Source: Salinirussus salinus (lineage in GTDB: Archaea > Halobacteriota > Halobacteria > Halobacteriales > Haloarculaceae). Taken from it: a DNA stretch of 64,000 bases. Below, one piece after another: positions 16,132 through 20,258 of the stretch. The notes under the pieces are model-generated. The model had not been told where the DNA came from, made no database searches, and saw only the letters and a program-made list of their open reading frames with translations. The stretch covers positions 682,001 to 746,000 of the forward strand of contig NZ_WOWO01000002.1 of the NCBI RefSeq assembly GCF_009831455.1, read 5' to 3'. The translations under genes and the position numbers were made by a program. Numbering within the stretch: position 1 is the first letter of the stretch; each line of letters starts with the position of its first letter.

Positions 16132-16593
16132 ATGACCAGCGACTGGCAGGACCATCTCGCCGGCGCACGCATGCGGGTCGACCAGCAGTTCGAACAGCGC
16201 GTCCGGGACTCCCGCTTTTCGAGTCAGGAGTGGGGGCTCATCATGACCGCCGTGGAGTTCGAGGTCCGGTCGGCGGACGACCCCGACAGCGCACGCCTCG
16301 TCGCGGACACGGACAAGCTGGGGGCGGTCGTCCCCGAACTCGGGAAGATCCAGGAGGAGATGGGCGGCGCGGCCCGCCCCCCCAGCGGCTCCTCCGGCGG
16401 CGGTCTCTTCGGCCGGCTGCGGCAGTACCTCGGCGGGCTCACGAGCGACTCCGGTCCCGAGGGGTCGAGCGACGAGCAGCTGGAGGCGGCCCGCACCCTG
16501 GCCGACGACTACGCGGTCGAACTCCAGGCCTACCTCGAGGAGCAGGGCCGGTGGGCCGACGTCTGTGCGCTCGCCGCGGACGCTGAGAGTTGA
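16132..16593 (+). CDS. DUF5799-like haloarchaeal protein
   Basis: A 153-residue soluble protein that I associate with haloarchaeal DUF5799. The conserved N-terminal half reads DHLAGARMRVDQQFEQRV...FSSQEWGLIMTAVEFEV, then ARLVADT. The middle (about 80-115) is a Gly/Ser/Pro-rich linker, and the C-terminus is a helix (LEAARTLADDYAVELQAYLEEQGRW). Function is unknown. The family name is from memory. It is convergent with the PP2C gene of the phosphosignalling operon. Confidence 0.7.
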   Translation: MTSDWQDHLAGARMRVDQQFEQRVRDSRFSSQEWGLIMTAVEFEVRSADDPDSARLVADTDKLGAVVPELGKIQEEMGGAARPPSGSSGGGLFGRLRQYLGGLTSDSGPEGSSDEQLEAARTLADDYAVELQAYLEEQGRWADVCALAADAES

Positions 16594-16617: not shown

Positions 16618-17793
16618 TCACTCCTCGACGACAGTCTCGCGGCGGTGGGCCGGGTGAGGGTCGCGGCCCCGCACCGGGAGCCGCGACGGCGTCTCGGGCA
16701 GTGTGGGGTCCTGTGCGAGCAGGACCGAGAGGTTGTCCTTGCCGCCGCGGTCGTTTCCCTCCGTGATCAGCCGGTCGGCGGCCGCCGACAGCGAGTCCGC
16801 GCCGAGCACCCACTCCCCGATGTCGGCGTCGGTGACGACCTGCTCGCGGACCCGGGCGGCGGCGTCCTCCCCCCGCCCGCTGCCCACGTACCGGTCGTAC
16901 AGGGCGGGCGCGTCGCTCTGGGCGTCGGGGAGCCCGTCGCTGGTCAGCAACAGGACGTCCTCGGCGAACAGGTCGACCGAGGCCGTCTCGACGGTCACGT
17001 CGGCGGCGTCGCCGCGGCCGCCGACCGCCCGGGTGAGTTCGTTGCCCCGCGGGTGGACGTGGGCCTCGACGCCGTCGAGTTCCCCGTCGGCGTAGAGTTG
17101 CTCGACGACCGCGTGGTCCTCGGTCAGCCGGGCGATATGGTCGTGGGCGCCGTTGCAGACGTAGGCCCGCGAGTCGCCGACCCACCCGTAGTGAAACCGC
17201 CCGTCGACGACCAGCCCCGCGACCACGGTCGTGTAGGCAGCGGTGCCGGCCTCGGACGCGTACGCGAGCACGTCCTGGTGGGCCTGCTGGATGGCCGCCT
17301 CGATGGCGCCGTGGAACCGGTCCTGGCGTGGCCGGCTGGAGGACGCGGGGTCGCTCCCGACCCCGGTACCGTTCCCGCTCTCGCCCTCGGCCCGTGCCGT
17401 CGGGTCTCCCTCCTCGGCCGGCGGTGCTCCGCCGACCGAGACGGTGTCGGGGAGGTCGAGGCCGAAGGCGCCGGGGTCCTCTCCGGCCGCACGGACCGCG
17501 AGGGGCGCCAGCTCCTCGGCGACCCGCGTCGTGGCGATGTAGGAGGCGACGTCCCCGGCCTCGTGGCCGCCGGCGCCGTCCGCGAGCACCACCACCGCGG
17601 TGCTCCTGGTCGTTCCCGGGTCAGCGTCTCCGCGGGCGTTCGGGTCCCCGTTCGCGCGCGAACTCGGGTCGCGGTCCGGGCCCAGATACCCCTCCCGGTG
17701 CCCGTCCTCGAAGACCGAGACCGCGAGGCTGTCCTCGTTGATGCCGTCCGGACGCTTGCGCTCGCCGACGTCGTAGCGGGTTGCGTATCTCAT
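16618..17793 (-). CDS. PP2C-family serine/threonine phosphatase
   Basis: A 391-residue Mn/Mg-dependent phosphatase (PPM/PP2C). Metal-ligand motifs are complete: GINEDS (Asp21), VVLADGAGGHEAG (Asp72, Gly73; DGAGGH for the usual DGMGGH), GWVGDSRAYV, RLTEDHAVVEQL, LLLTSDGLPD (Asp286) and GGKDNLSVLL (Asp353). Two acidic Gly/Pro-rich insertions (about 36-64 and 120-158) are unusual in bacterial PppA-type enzymes and are probably loops. It is the last gene of the vWA-kinase-phosphatase operon and overlaps the kinase gene by 4 nt (ATGA). Expected job: dephosphorylating the kinase and its targets. The start was fixed at 17793 because upstream in-frame sequence is the shadow of the kinase. Confidence 0.93.
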   Translation of the reverse strand: MRYATRYDVGERKRPDGINEDSLAVSVFEDGHREGYLGPDRDPSSRANGDPNARGDADPGTTRSTAVVVLADGAGGHEAGDVASYIATTRVAEELAPLAVRAAGEDPGAFGLDLPDTVSVGGAPPAEEGDPTARAEGESGNGTGVGSDPASSSRPRQDRFHGAIEAAIQQAHQDVLAYASEAGTAAYTTVVAGLVVDGRFHYGWVGDSRAYVCNGAHDHIARLTEDHAVVEQLYADGELDGVEAHVHPRGNELTRAVGGRGDAADVTVETASVDLFAEDVLLLTSDGLPDAQSDAPALYDRYVGSGRGEDAAARVREQVVTDADIGEWVLGADSLSAAADRLITEGNDRGGKDNLSVLLAQDPTLPETPSRLPVRGRDPHPAHRRETVVEE

Positions 17794-18995
17794 GTGCGGA
17801 ACTGGAAGGTGAGGCCGTAGCTGGGGTGGACCAGGGCGACGAGGTCGCCGTCGCTCAGCTCGTAGGACTCGGGCGGGACGAAGCCGTGGCGGTCGGTCGG
17901 GTCCTCGCCCTGGCGTTGCAGGCGCTCGCGGCCGGCCGCACACAGCACCCGCTGCCAGCCGTCGCCGGTCTGGACGTAGGTGCCGTTGAGACTGCTGTCC
18001 CGGAGCCGCCAGCCGCCGTCCTCGTACTCGAACTGGACCTGGACCGTCGAGACGTACTCCTCCTCGTCGCGGACGGCGATGGAGGGGGCCGGCCCGGCCG
18101 CGTCCCGCCGGCCCAGCGTGTCGCCGGGGTAGACCGAGTACTCCTCGTCGCCGTCCTGTCGGACCAGCGAGGCGCTGGGGGGCGGCGTGGAGTCGCGCTC
18201 CCGGAGGACCCGCTCCATCGCCGTGGCGTTGCGGTACCGCTCGTCGGGGTCGGACCGGGTGGCCTTCTCGACGGTCTCCGCGAGGTAGGGCTCGCAGTCG
18301 ACGCCGAAATCGCGCGGGTCGACGCCGTCCTTGTGGGGGACCGCACCCCGGAGCAGGAAGAGGAGGATCTTCCCGATGGAGTAGACGTCGGACCACGGCC
18401 CCTGGCGGGCGTCGGTCTCGGTCGCTTCGGCCACCTCAGGGGGCTTGTAGGGCCCGAGGATGGTGGTCTCGCCGACACCGCCGGCCGCCGAGGTGGCGGT
18501 GTTGAAGTCGATGAGGATCGGAGTGACGAGCCCGTCGCGTTCGGTGAGCATGACGTTGTCCGGCTTGAGGTCGCGGTAGACGATCTCGTTGCCGTGGAGG
18601 AAGGCCATCGCGCCACAGAGCGCGACTCCCACCTGCCGGACCTCCTCCTCCGGGACGTCCGTCCTGTCGATAGCCTCGTCGAGCTCGTAGCCGTCGACGA
18701 ACTCCACGACCAGGTAGGGGAGGCCGTCGACCTCGCCGCGGTCGAGCAGCGACATGATGTTGGGGTGGCCGCCCGCGGCCTCGACGGTCTCGAGCAGGTC
18801 GGCCTCCGTCTCGAAGTACTGCTCGACGACCGCCGTGCTGTTGCTGGAGTCGTAGTTGGGGTACTTGACGGCGACGGTCTCGCCGGTCTCGGTGTCGACG
18901 GCCTCGTAGGCGACGGCGAAGCCGCCGGCCCCGGCCTTCTCGCCCAGCCGGTACCGCCCCGCGAGCGTCTCGCCGGTCGCCGGGACTGCGGTCAC
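17790..18995 (-). CDS. Ser/Thr protein kinase with C-terminal FHA domain
   Basis: A 401-residue Hanks-type kinase, cytoplasmic. The Gly-rich loop GAGGFAVAYE (22-31), VAVK with Lys44, the catalytic loop VYRDLKPDNV (Asp142, Asn147) and YKPPEV (APE-like, 183-188) are clear. The Mg-binding DFG motif reads DFN (163-165), a rare change. A Pro/Ser-rich hinge leads to a C-terminal FHA-like domain (about 285-400) with LRDSSLNGTYV, the phosphothreonine-recognition loop, and LSDGDLVAL. It begins with GTG 7 nt after the vWA gene and overlaps the PP2C gene. A kinase with its own FHA module plus vWA and PP2C neighbours recalls TerY-P and type VI PpkA/PppA/Fha circuits. Activity is inferred. Confidence 0.92.
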   Translation of the reverse strand: MTAVPATGETLAGRYRLGEKAGAGGFAVAYEAVDTETGETVAVKYPNYDSSNSTAVVEQYFETEADLLETVEAAGGHPNIMSLLDRGEVDGLPYLVVEFVDGYELDEAIDRTDVPEEEVRQVGVALCGAMAFLHGNEIVYRDLKPDNVMLTERDGLVTPILIDFNTATSAAGGVGETTILGPYKPPEVAEATETDARQGPWSDVYSIGKILLFLLRGAVPHKDGVDPRDFGVDCEPYLAETVEKATRSDPDERYRNATAMERVLRERDSTPPPSASLVRQDGDEEYSVYPGDTLGRRDAAGPAPSIAVRDEEEYVSTVQVQFEYEDGGWRLRDSSLNGTYVQTGDGWQRVLCAAGRERLQRQGEDPTDRHGFVPPESYELSDGDLVALVHPSYGLTFQFRT

Positions 18996-19002
18996 GGCTC
19001 TC

Positions 19003-20190
19003 TCACTCTATCCGCTCCTCGTCGACGATCTCCGTCGCCCGGCTGCGTTCGGCCTTGCCGCCCTCCTTGACGACCTGGGTCTCGCGGGCGACGTCCTCGA
19101 CGACCTCGGTCTCGCCGTGGATCCGGGTCATCTGCTCGACCTGCGTCTCCGCGGCCTCGACGTTTCCCTTGCCGAGTTCGGTGCGGACGACCGTCTCCTG
19201 GTGGTCGAGCTGGACCTCCTCGTTTGCCTCCGCGAGCTCCTCGCTCTCCTCGCTGTAGTCGACGGTGATCCGGTCGGTCGCCTCGTCGCCGCGGGCCCGC
19301 AGCCGCACCTGGACGAGCGGGACCCCCTCCGCGGGGTCGTGGGCCGGCGCCGCCACCTTCATCACGACACGCTGGCGCTCCCGTTCGGTGAGGTCCGGCA
19401 GCTTCACCGTGGCGGTGTTCGCCTCCCACTCGGGCTCGACGTCCTGGGCCTGGGGGAGCGCCCGGTAGATGTCGCTGACCTCCACGCCGTTTGCCGCGTC
19501 GAGTTCGAGTTCCGCGTCGGCGGCCACGACCTGGGAGGCGGACTCGACGGCCTCGCCGAAGAAGGCCTCGATGTCCCCGGCTTCCTCCAGGTGGGTCCAC
19601 TTCCCCCGGGCGGTCGTTCCCAGGGTGCGGATCGTGTCCTGGTTGTAGTCCTCGCCGATCCCCGCGGCCTCGATCCGGACGCCCGAGCCGTCGATGTCGC
19701 GGGCCAGCCCCTCGAACTCCGCGACGGTGTGGTCCTTGTCCTTGCCGTCCGAGAGCAGGAGGAGCCGGCGAACCGCGTCACCGCTCGCTCCGGGGTCGTG
19801 GTCGAGCGACGCCAGCGACTCGCTGGCGGTCTCCAGCCCGGCGTACATGTCCGTGCCGCCGCCCGCCGAAAGTTCCTCGACCATCCCCATCGCCTCGTCC
19901 CGGCCGAGGTCGCCCCAGCGAACCGGTCCCAGCAGTACCTCAGCGGTCGAGTCGAAGGCCACGACGCTGACGTAGTCGGTCGGTTCCAGGAGGCCGAACA
20001 CCCAGGACGCGCCGTCCCGGGCACGGCTGATCTTCGCACCGCTCATCGACCCGCTGGTGTCGATACAGAGCGCGATGTGACGCTCGACGCCGCCGGTCTG
20101 CTCGCCCGGCTCGACGTCGACCTCGGCCGTGATCCGCGCGCCCTCCGGCGGGACCGCCGGCCTGTTAACCTCGGTCTCGATGCTCGCCAT
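19003..20190 (-). CDS. vWA-domain protein (TerY-like)
   Basis: A 395-residue cytoplasmic protein with a von Willebrand A domain (about 35-225). Its MIDAS metal site is intact: DTSGSMS (Asp44, Ser46, Ser48), GGTDMY (Thr113) and LLSDGKDKD (Asp148). A beta-rich second half follows (about 230-330, ending in RVVMKVAAPAHD... and RITVDYSEE), then a long charged helical tail (about 330-395) rich in Glu, Thr and Val that could carry phosphorylation sites read by the neighbouring FHA domain. It is the first gene of the vWA-kinase-PP2C operon. A minus-strand ATACATA-like box lies 24-32 nt before the ATG. No signal peptide, so it is probably the intracellular scaffold or target of the kinase. Confidence 0.9.
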   Translation of the reverse strand: MASIETEVNRPAVPPEGARITAEVDVEPGEQTGGVERHIALCIDTSGSMSGAKISRARDGASWVFGLLEPTDYVSVVAFDSTAEVLLGPVRWGDLGRDEAMGMVEELSAGGGTDMYAGLETASESLASLDHDPGASGDAVRRLLLLSDGKDKDHTVAEFEGLARDIDGSGVRIEAAGIGEDYNQDTIRTLGTTARGKWTHLEEAGDIEAFFGEAVESASQVVAADAELELDAANGVEVSDIYRALPQAQDVEPEWEANTATVKLPDLTERERQRVVMKVAAPAHDPAEGVPLVQVRLRARGDEATDRITVDYSEESEELAEANEEVQLDHQETVVRTELGKGNVEAAETQVEQMTRIHGETEVVEDVARETQVVKEGGKAERSRATEIVDEERIE

Positions 20191-20213: not shown

Positions 20214-20222
20214 GTATGTATC
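20214..20222 (-). promoter_or_regulatory. TATA-like box of the vWA-kinase-PP2C operon
   Basis: Reads GATACATAC on the minus strand, 24-32 nt before the vWA ATG at 20190. Fits a leaderless promoter. Confidence 0.5.
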
Positions 20223-20241
20223 TTGCCCGCACCCCGCAACT

Positions 20242-20258
20242 GCTTTGCGATGCAAAGC
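20242..20258. promoter_or_regulatory. Perfect 17-bp inverted repeat between divergent operons
   Basis: GCTTTGC, 3-nt spacer, GCAAAGC. It sits midway between two divergent promoters, where an operator is expected. A shorter related palindrome TTTGGCAAA follows at 20265-20273. The winged-helix regulator that ends the ABC operon is the obvious candidate ligand. Confidence 0.5.

Follow-up and report, generated by a model that had tools for sequence, protein, structure and literature searches.

We analysed a window of 64,000 nucleotides (nt) from the haloarchaeon Salinirussus salinus (contig NZ_WOWO01000002.1, positions 682,001 to 746,000), in which three consecutive minus-strand genes at 16618-20190 encode a von Willebrand factor A (vWA) protein, a Ser/Thr kinase fused to an FHA domain, and a PP2C phosphatase (Table 1). 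A 7-nt spacer separates the vWA and kinase genes (18996-19002), and the kinase and PP2C open reading frames overlap by 4 nt (17790-17793). Upstream of the vWA gene is a TATA-like element, AAGATACATA, which is identical upstream of the vWA gene of the nearest named relative, the metagenome-assembled genome Salinirussus sp. LUM.44 (vWA protein 88% identical), and recurs as a one-base variant, AAGATACATT, in two Halovenus-type loci. Because this element precedes the vWA gene and is kept in the congener and in the two Halovenus-type loci, a single transcript is likely, and the element is the probable operon promoter. A scan for sigma-70-type promoters gave no match, in line with an archaeal host. 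An initial annotation of the window had read the adjacent genes, with this spacing, as one operon; the coordinates and the shared TATA-like element agree with that reading.

Domains and residues of the three proteins

The same annotation described a vWA protein with an intact metal-ion-dependent adhesion site (MIDAS), a kinase with its own FHA domain, and a PP2C phosphatase, and Pfam matches together with invariant residues confirm each of these. The vWA protein matches VWA_2 (1.1e-13), and its MIDAS residues D44, S46, S48, T113 and D148 are intact and invariant among relatives. The kinase matches both Pkinase (1.6e-30) and FHA (1.9e-5); K44, E64, D142, N147 and D163 are invariant in 20/20 relatives, as are R296, S316 and N337, the three phospho-threonine-binding positions of the FHA domain. 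It lacks a transmembrane segment, is soluble by hydropathy, and is the sole protein-kinase-domain gene over the Pfam cut-off in the genome; its nearest solved kinase, by both sequence and fold, is PknB. The phosphatase is the sole PP2C_2 match in the genome (7.1e-8) and has its acidic motifs D21, D72-G73, D286-G287 and D353-N354 invariant in 14/14 sequences. Its C-terminal end is otherwise variable, yet T387, within R-[ED]-T-[VI], is invariant in 14/14 as well, and is predicted to be a phospho-threonine docking site.

Profile and structure comparisons both lead from the vWA protein to Sulfolobus ArnB. The top PDB match of its family profile was 8s05_A (E 6e-19), the ArnB chain of the Sulfolobus ArnAB complex 8s05, followed by ArnE/vWA2 (5a8j) and 4fx5, and the aligned C-terminal stretch of 8s05_A includes the published ArnB phosphopeptides (PMC6509490). 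An AlphaFold model (predicted local distance difference test, pLDDT, 88) consists of two N-terminal strands (3-27), the vWA domain, beta-sandwich strands (221-312) and helices (316-386), with the last 15 residues disordered. Foldseek ranked 4fx5, 8s05_A, 8s05_B and 5a8j as the top four matches to this model, with 8s05_A in second place (E 3.6e-24, template-modelling scores 0.69/0.71) and Sec23/24 lower; the ArnB fold as published agrees with both the model and this ranking (PMC12852372). By profile and predicted fold, then, the vWA protein is a homologue of ArnB with the same three-part layout. A scan of a model library matched no TerY model to it. Among 22 homologues, just two columns of its C-terminal 71 residues are fully conserved, T386 and G377, and T333, T337, T349, T355, T361 and T371 are kept in 68-95% of the sequences. 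These tail threonines are likewise predicted to be phospho-threonine docking sites.

Table 1. Features of the vWA-kinase-PP2C operon (window coordinates)
Feature	Position	Strand	Remarks
vWA protein, ArnB-like, 395 aa, ATG	19003..20190	-	vWA inserted in beta-sandwich, then helix bundle and disordered tail (predicted)
vWA domain, ~residues 38-206, with MIDAS residues	19570..20077	-	Pfam and alignment
vWA C-terminal helices and tail, residues 324-386, predicted phosphorylation region	19033..19221	-	conserved Thr; position-equivalent to phosphorylated helix bundle of ArnB
vWA T386 codon	19033..19035	-	invariant in 22/22 homologues; within disordered tail
Hanks-type Ser/Thr kinase with C-terminal FHA, 401 aa, GTG start	17790..18995	-	Pfam and alignment
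Kinase FHA domain, ~residues 285-401	17793..18143	-	R296, S316, N337 invariant 20/20
PP2C-type phosphatase, 391 aa, ATG	16618..17793	-	metal-binding motifs intact
PP2C T387 codon (R-[ED]-T-[VI]), predicted phospho-Thr docking site	16633..16635	-	invariant 14/14; near C-terminus
TATA-like element AAGATACATA	20215..20224	-	25-34 nt upstream of vWA ATG; probable operon promoter

Two further features flank the operon. A perfect inverted repeat, GCTTTGC-ATC-GCAAAGC (window 20242-20258), lies between it and divergent ABC-transporter genes; no such repeat was seen ahead of the vWA gene in the congener. At the other end, a DUF5799 gene (window 16132-16593, plus strand) is convergent with the operon and lies outside the conserved cassette in other loci; in Salinirussus LUM.44, too, the operon is followed by a gene that matches it in size and orientation.

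A conserved cassette and its two partner genes

We surveyed 292 genomes of the class Halobacteria, with gene maps for 40 loci and a further 27 named loci (Haloarcula, Halomicrobium, Salinibaculum, Halovivax, Natrinema, Halorubrum and others). A kinase-linked vWA gene is carried by 38 of the 292 genomes, and in 38/38 of these carriers the kinase and PP2C genes are within a few kilobases (kb), which refutes the possibility, raised by the initial annotation, that relatives rarely keep the trio together. All 15 of the 15 sampled genomes of one genus (Haloarcula, by named matches) retain the cassette, at one conserved site across the loci compared. Beyond Halobacteria, a search of 393 genomes from the phylum, some of them shared with the class sample, gave a single distant kinase match (E 1e-30).

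Relatives have five genes rather than three. The fourth, which we call F2, encodes a protein with zinc ribbons at its N-terminus and an FHA domain at its C-terminus, joined by an acidic linker, and adjoins the cassette in 30/31 of the kinase loci from the class survey and in 23/27 named loci, either before the vWA gene (Natrialbaceae-type loci) or after the PP2C gene (Haloarculaceae). Its profile matches ArnA chains in the PDB, 8s05_C (3e-5) and 5a8i (8e-5), over the ribbon region. The fifth gene, F5 in Haloarculaceae or its homologue F44 in Natrialbaceae, follows F2 or is divergent from it and is present in most loci. The encoded protein is predicted to cross the membrane 5-8 times and has a T-R-[VI]-[FY] motif in a long linker and a zinc ribbon at its C-terminus; T-R-V-F is invariant in 6/6 F5 sequences. 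The apparent loss of this membrane protein from several loci proved to be an artefact of calling genes by composition, an approach that misses membrane proteins, and was corrected by tblastn.

In the genome of S. salinus, profile searches found F2 (E 4e-37) and F5 (E 5e-81) side by side at 627245-630338 of this contig, outside the window and 68 kb away from the triad. The five-gene set is here split over two loci, not lost, and this second locus rules out the fully stand-alone circuit that the initial annotation had suggested. At first the genome seemed to lack FHA genes, but this was a false negative, as the genome search with the Pfam FHA model failed to detect the domain even in the kinase; F2 emerged from an alignment-based search. 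Similarly, a DNA pattern for TRVF[ST]P had no match in this genome because the local form is TRVYTP, the F5 copy carrying NTRVYTPP.

The distance matrices of the vWA, kinase, PP2C and F2 proteins correlate with r = 0.93-0.96 across 31 loci, and 0/1000 label permutations were as high. In addition, two Haloarculaceae genomes contain a second, Natrialbaceae-type F2-vWA-kinase-PP2C copy (locus L063, genome G138, contig C1; and locus L064, genome G281, contig C14), indicating lateral transfer of the whole unit. Together, the correlated distances and the second copies point to a single functional unit, able to move as a whole. Consistent with the initial annotation's view of the triad as little described, we found no account of this gene set in the literature, a search limited to open-licence papers; the ArnAB structure paper mentions Halorubrum solely as having a related structure, without this gene set (PMC12852372).

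A different set of vWA genes was seen at eight loci (L065-L072), where a related vWA gene (L066:9544-10713) occurs with an Hsp70 homologue (L066:11591-13225) and without a kinase; its neighbours encode coiled-coil GrpE-like and transglutaminase-like proteins, and some of these loci lie near a Tubulin_2 protein. These matches were set aside as another gene set.

Relation to ArnAB and a proposed phospho-switch

Archaeal Ser/Thr signalling is known chiefly from Sulfolobus, in which ArnC and the PP2A phosphatase are encoded outside the arnA-arnB operon. To our knowledge, the ArnA/ArnB motility switch has until now been known only from this heat-loving genus. The zinc finger and the FHA domain of ArnA bind ArnB, the latter only after ArnC has phosphorylated the C-terminal helices (PMC6509490, PMC12852372). 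The haloarchaeal set shares with ArnAB a vWA scaffold of the three-part ArnB fold with a Thr-rich C-terminal helix bundle, a partner with an N-terminal zinc ribbon and a C-terminal FHA domain, and a Hanks kinase with a Ser/Thr phosphatase. It differs in that Sulfolobus acidocaldarius uses the kinases ArnC/ArnD and the phosphatase PP2A, whereas here the kinase lies in the operon and has its own FHA domain, the phosphatase is a PP2C, also within the operon, and a tagged membrane protein is added.

We consider it fairly probable that the operon encodes most of an ArnAB-type phospho-switch of haloarchaea, one that has a kinase, a phosphatase and a membrane partner of its own. The five-gene association, the intact catalytic and binding residues, the ArnB architecture and the conserved threonines behind this reading are established by sequence comparison and structure prediction. 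By analogy with ArnAB and with the actinobacterial GarA/OdhI proteins, the vWA protein would be an ArnB-type scaffold, and the FHA-kinase would phosphorylate threonines in its C-terminal helices and tail as well as partner proteins. The FHA domains of the kinase and of the ArnA-type F2 would then bind the phospho-threonines, converting a loose complex held by zinc ribbons into a tight one. PP2C would remove the phosphate, and may be recruited through the same FHA reading, as the invariant Thr in its tail suggests. The polytopic F5, with its T-R-V-[YF] tag and zinc ribbon, would be a likely membrane input or anchor. That F5 is an integral membrane protein is also the single pointer to the response to surface or envelope stress that the initial annotation had put forward as a possible role.

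Several points weigh against such a switch. In the FHA domain of F2 from Haloarculaceae, including S. salinus, H replaces the canonical Ser and NP replaces NG, so that this domain may bind phospho-threonine poorly, although the kinase FHA retains all residues; and the operon and its two partners are separated in this genome. The mapped ArnB sites (SIETT, VEQT) differ from the T-x-[VI]-[FY] form, the match of F2 to the ArnA zinc ribbon is weak, and such ribbons are generic. Because an ArnB-like architecture also occurs in Sec23/24 and Hsp70-linked vWA proteins, which have other roles, fold alone does not settle function.

Homology of the vWA protein to ArnB might also mean that the system regulates archaella or pili, as a functional equal of Sulfolobus ArnAB. 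Archaellin genes are indeed present in 36/38 carriers versus 198/254 other genomes (p 0.015, uncorrected for relatedness, which by itself could yield this value). However, archaellin matches are absent from two carriers (G228 and G223), the system is missing from many motile haloarchaea, and no archaellum gene was recognised beside it. We regard this role as improbable. We give still less credence to an anti-viral or stress module of the TerY-P type, in which the vWA protein, kinase and PP2C switch a defence effector. The three enzyme classes are the same, TerY-P-like triads whose kinase carries an OB-fold are stand-alone antiphage systems (PMC11090510), the presence of the cassette is patchy (38/292 genomes), and the kinase matches PADLOC kinase models. 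Yet the FHA domain of the kinase and the three-domain ArnB-type vWA are unlike TerY-P, and the compact form has no linked effector. The best matches in PADLOC are hits to kinase domains in general, and the vWA protein and PP2C match no model; since, in addition, all 15 Haloarcula genomes keep the cassette, in the manner of a core gene at its conserved site, a defence role is less likely. Least credible is a general housekeeping kinase and phosphatase pair with which an unrelated vWA gene is merely co-transcribed. The genome has no other Hanks kinase over the cut-off and no other PP2C_2 match, so the two enzymes could serve many substrates, but the vWA gene accompanies them in 38/38 carriers, in both gene orders and in the second, laterally acquired copies (G138, G281), and its tail has conserved threonines.

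The initial annotation likened the triad to TerY-P and to the PpkA/PppA/Fha module of type VI secretion, and the likeness holds for the enzyme classes; the closest known system is instead Sulfolobus ArnA/ArnB. TerY-P has the same three classes adjacent, with PP2C in the same operon, but its kinase ends in a zinc ribbon or OB-fold (PMC11090510) in place of FHA, and its vWA protein is of the stand-alone TerY type, whereas the protein here has a beta-sandwich and helix bundle, no Ter genes accompany it and the host is haloarchaeal. PpkA/PppA/Fha likewise combines a kinase, a PP2C and an FHA reader in one circuit; here the kinase is soluble, FHA is fused to it and the vWA protein is ArnB-type. As the initial annotation had noted, no usual Ter or type VI secretion gene was identified in the neighbourhoods examined; nor was any other secretion gene or further conserved neighbour family, although the scan against a library did not cover every neighbour. 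Membership in the TerY-P triad and in a type VI secretion module was rejected, as was that in the anti-phage systems modelled by PADLOC. The GAP1-N2 GTPase systems of actinobacteria also have adjacent kinase, PP2C and stand-alone vWA genes (PMC7159879), but are centred on a GTPase, and none of those core genes was recognised here. ESCRT Halo_FHA loci contain a kinase, a phosphatase and FHA too, but are defined by Vps4/ESCRT-III (PMC10936438), which were not seen among the conserved neighbours.

Tagged zinc-ribbon proteins

Many proteins with no relation to one another, encoded in the larger islands of Halorubrum-type genomes and related ones, have a C-terminal zinc ribbon next to a linker that contains T-x-[VI]-[FY]; among them are PQQ beta-propellers, cold-shock, HEAT, winged-helix DNA-binding, pentapeptide, IF5A-like and membrane proteins. 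Most tagged families have 4-7 motifs per 1000 residues, whereas the figure for 488 neighbours is 0.65 and that for the kinases and F2 readers about 0.2-0.3. The linker tag also goes together with the zinc ribbon (11/18 versus 14/200 non-redundant proteins, p 9e-8; p-values for the tag are descriptive only, the motif having been spotted before counting). Within 25 kb of the kinase 30/43 zinc-ribbon proteins are tagged, and beyond this distance 1/6; in control regions from genomes without the system, the tag occurs in 0/7. One protein in the Halorubrum kinase island (L062:19044-19637, minus strand) is a homologue of the IF5A-like family of locus L063, extended by a T-K-V-Y tag and a zinc ribbon at the C-terminus.

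The GarA/OdhI system with PknB/PknG couples FHA recognition to a T-x-V-F phospho-motif, and its kinase-substrate peptide VETTSVFRADF contains T-x-V-F (PMC8546545); it differs in targeting metabolism and in having neither a vWA scaffold nor zinc-ribbon tags. Because GarA/OdhI substrates share T-x-V-F, phospho-threonine recognition of the haloarchaeal tag is a reasonable reading, and the tags are predicted to be docking sites of this kind. More tentatively, and with somewhat less than even confidence, we propose that T-x-[VI]-[FY] plus a zinc ribbon is a portable haloarchaeal phospho-threonine address label on many unrelated proteins, which FHA-kinases would write, FHA domains read and PP2C erase, with the ArnB-type vWA protein as organiser and the compact five-gene form as the minimal version. 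Alternatively, the motif might be no phospho-site at all and might instead serve strand formation or processing in company with zinc ribbons, and it does lie close to the ribbon in nearly every case. We regard this as unlikely: the Thr is retained while adjoining residues vary, the motif agrees with the FHA-linked substrate motif of GarA/OdhI, none of the seven control zinc-ribbon proteins bears it, and the kinases and zinc-ribbon-FHA readers are depleted in it.

At one other locus (L165:14297-16158 with L165:16316-17470), a probable signal peptidase gene adjoins those of several small exported proteins that are nearly identical in their signal regions (LTRRNALIGLGSLVAGSGALVGTGAFSSVEADR...).

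The haloarchaeal system is best read as a real and conserved variant of the ArnAB kind with its own kinase and phosphatase. The archaeal phosphosignalling circuit that the initial annotation had envisaged is supported. If this reading is true, a scaffold, writer, eraser, reader and candidate membrane partner are all present in culturable Haloarcula, and the logic of the switch is directly testable there. We know of no earlier proposal of a portable phospho-label in archaea, so that the tag, if phosphorylated, would be the first. In that case, the substrate set of the T-x-[VI]-[FY] zinc-ribbon tag would be predictable from sequence alone.

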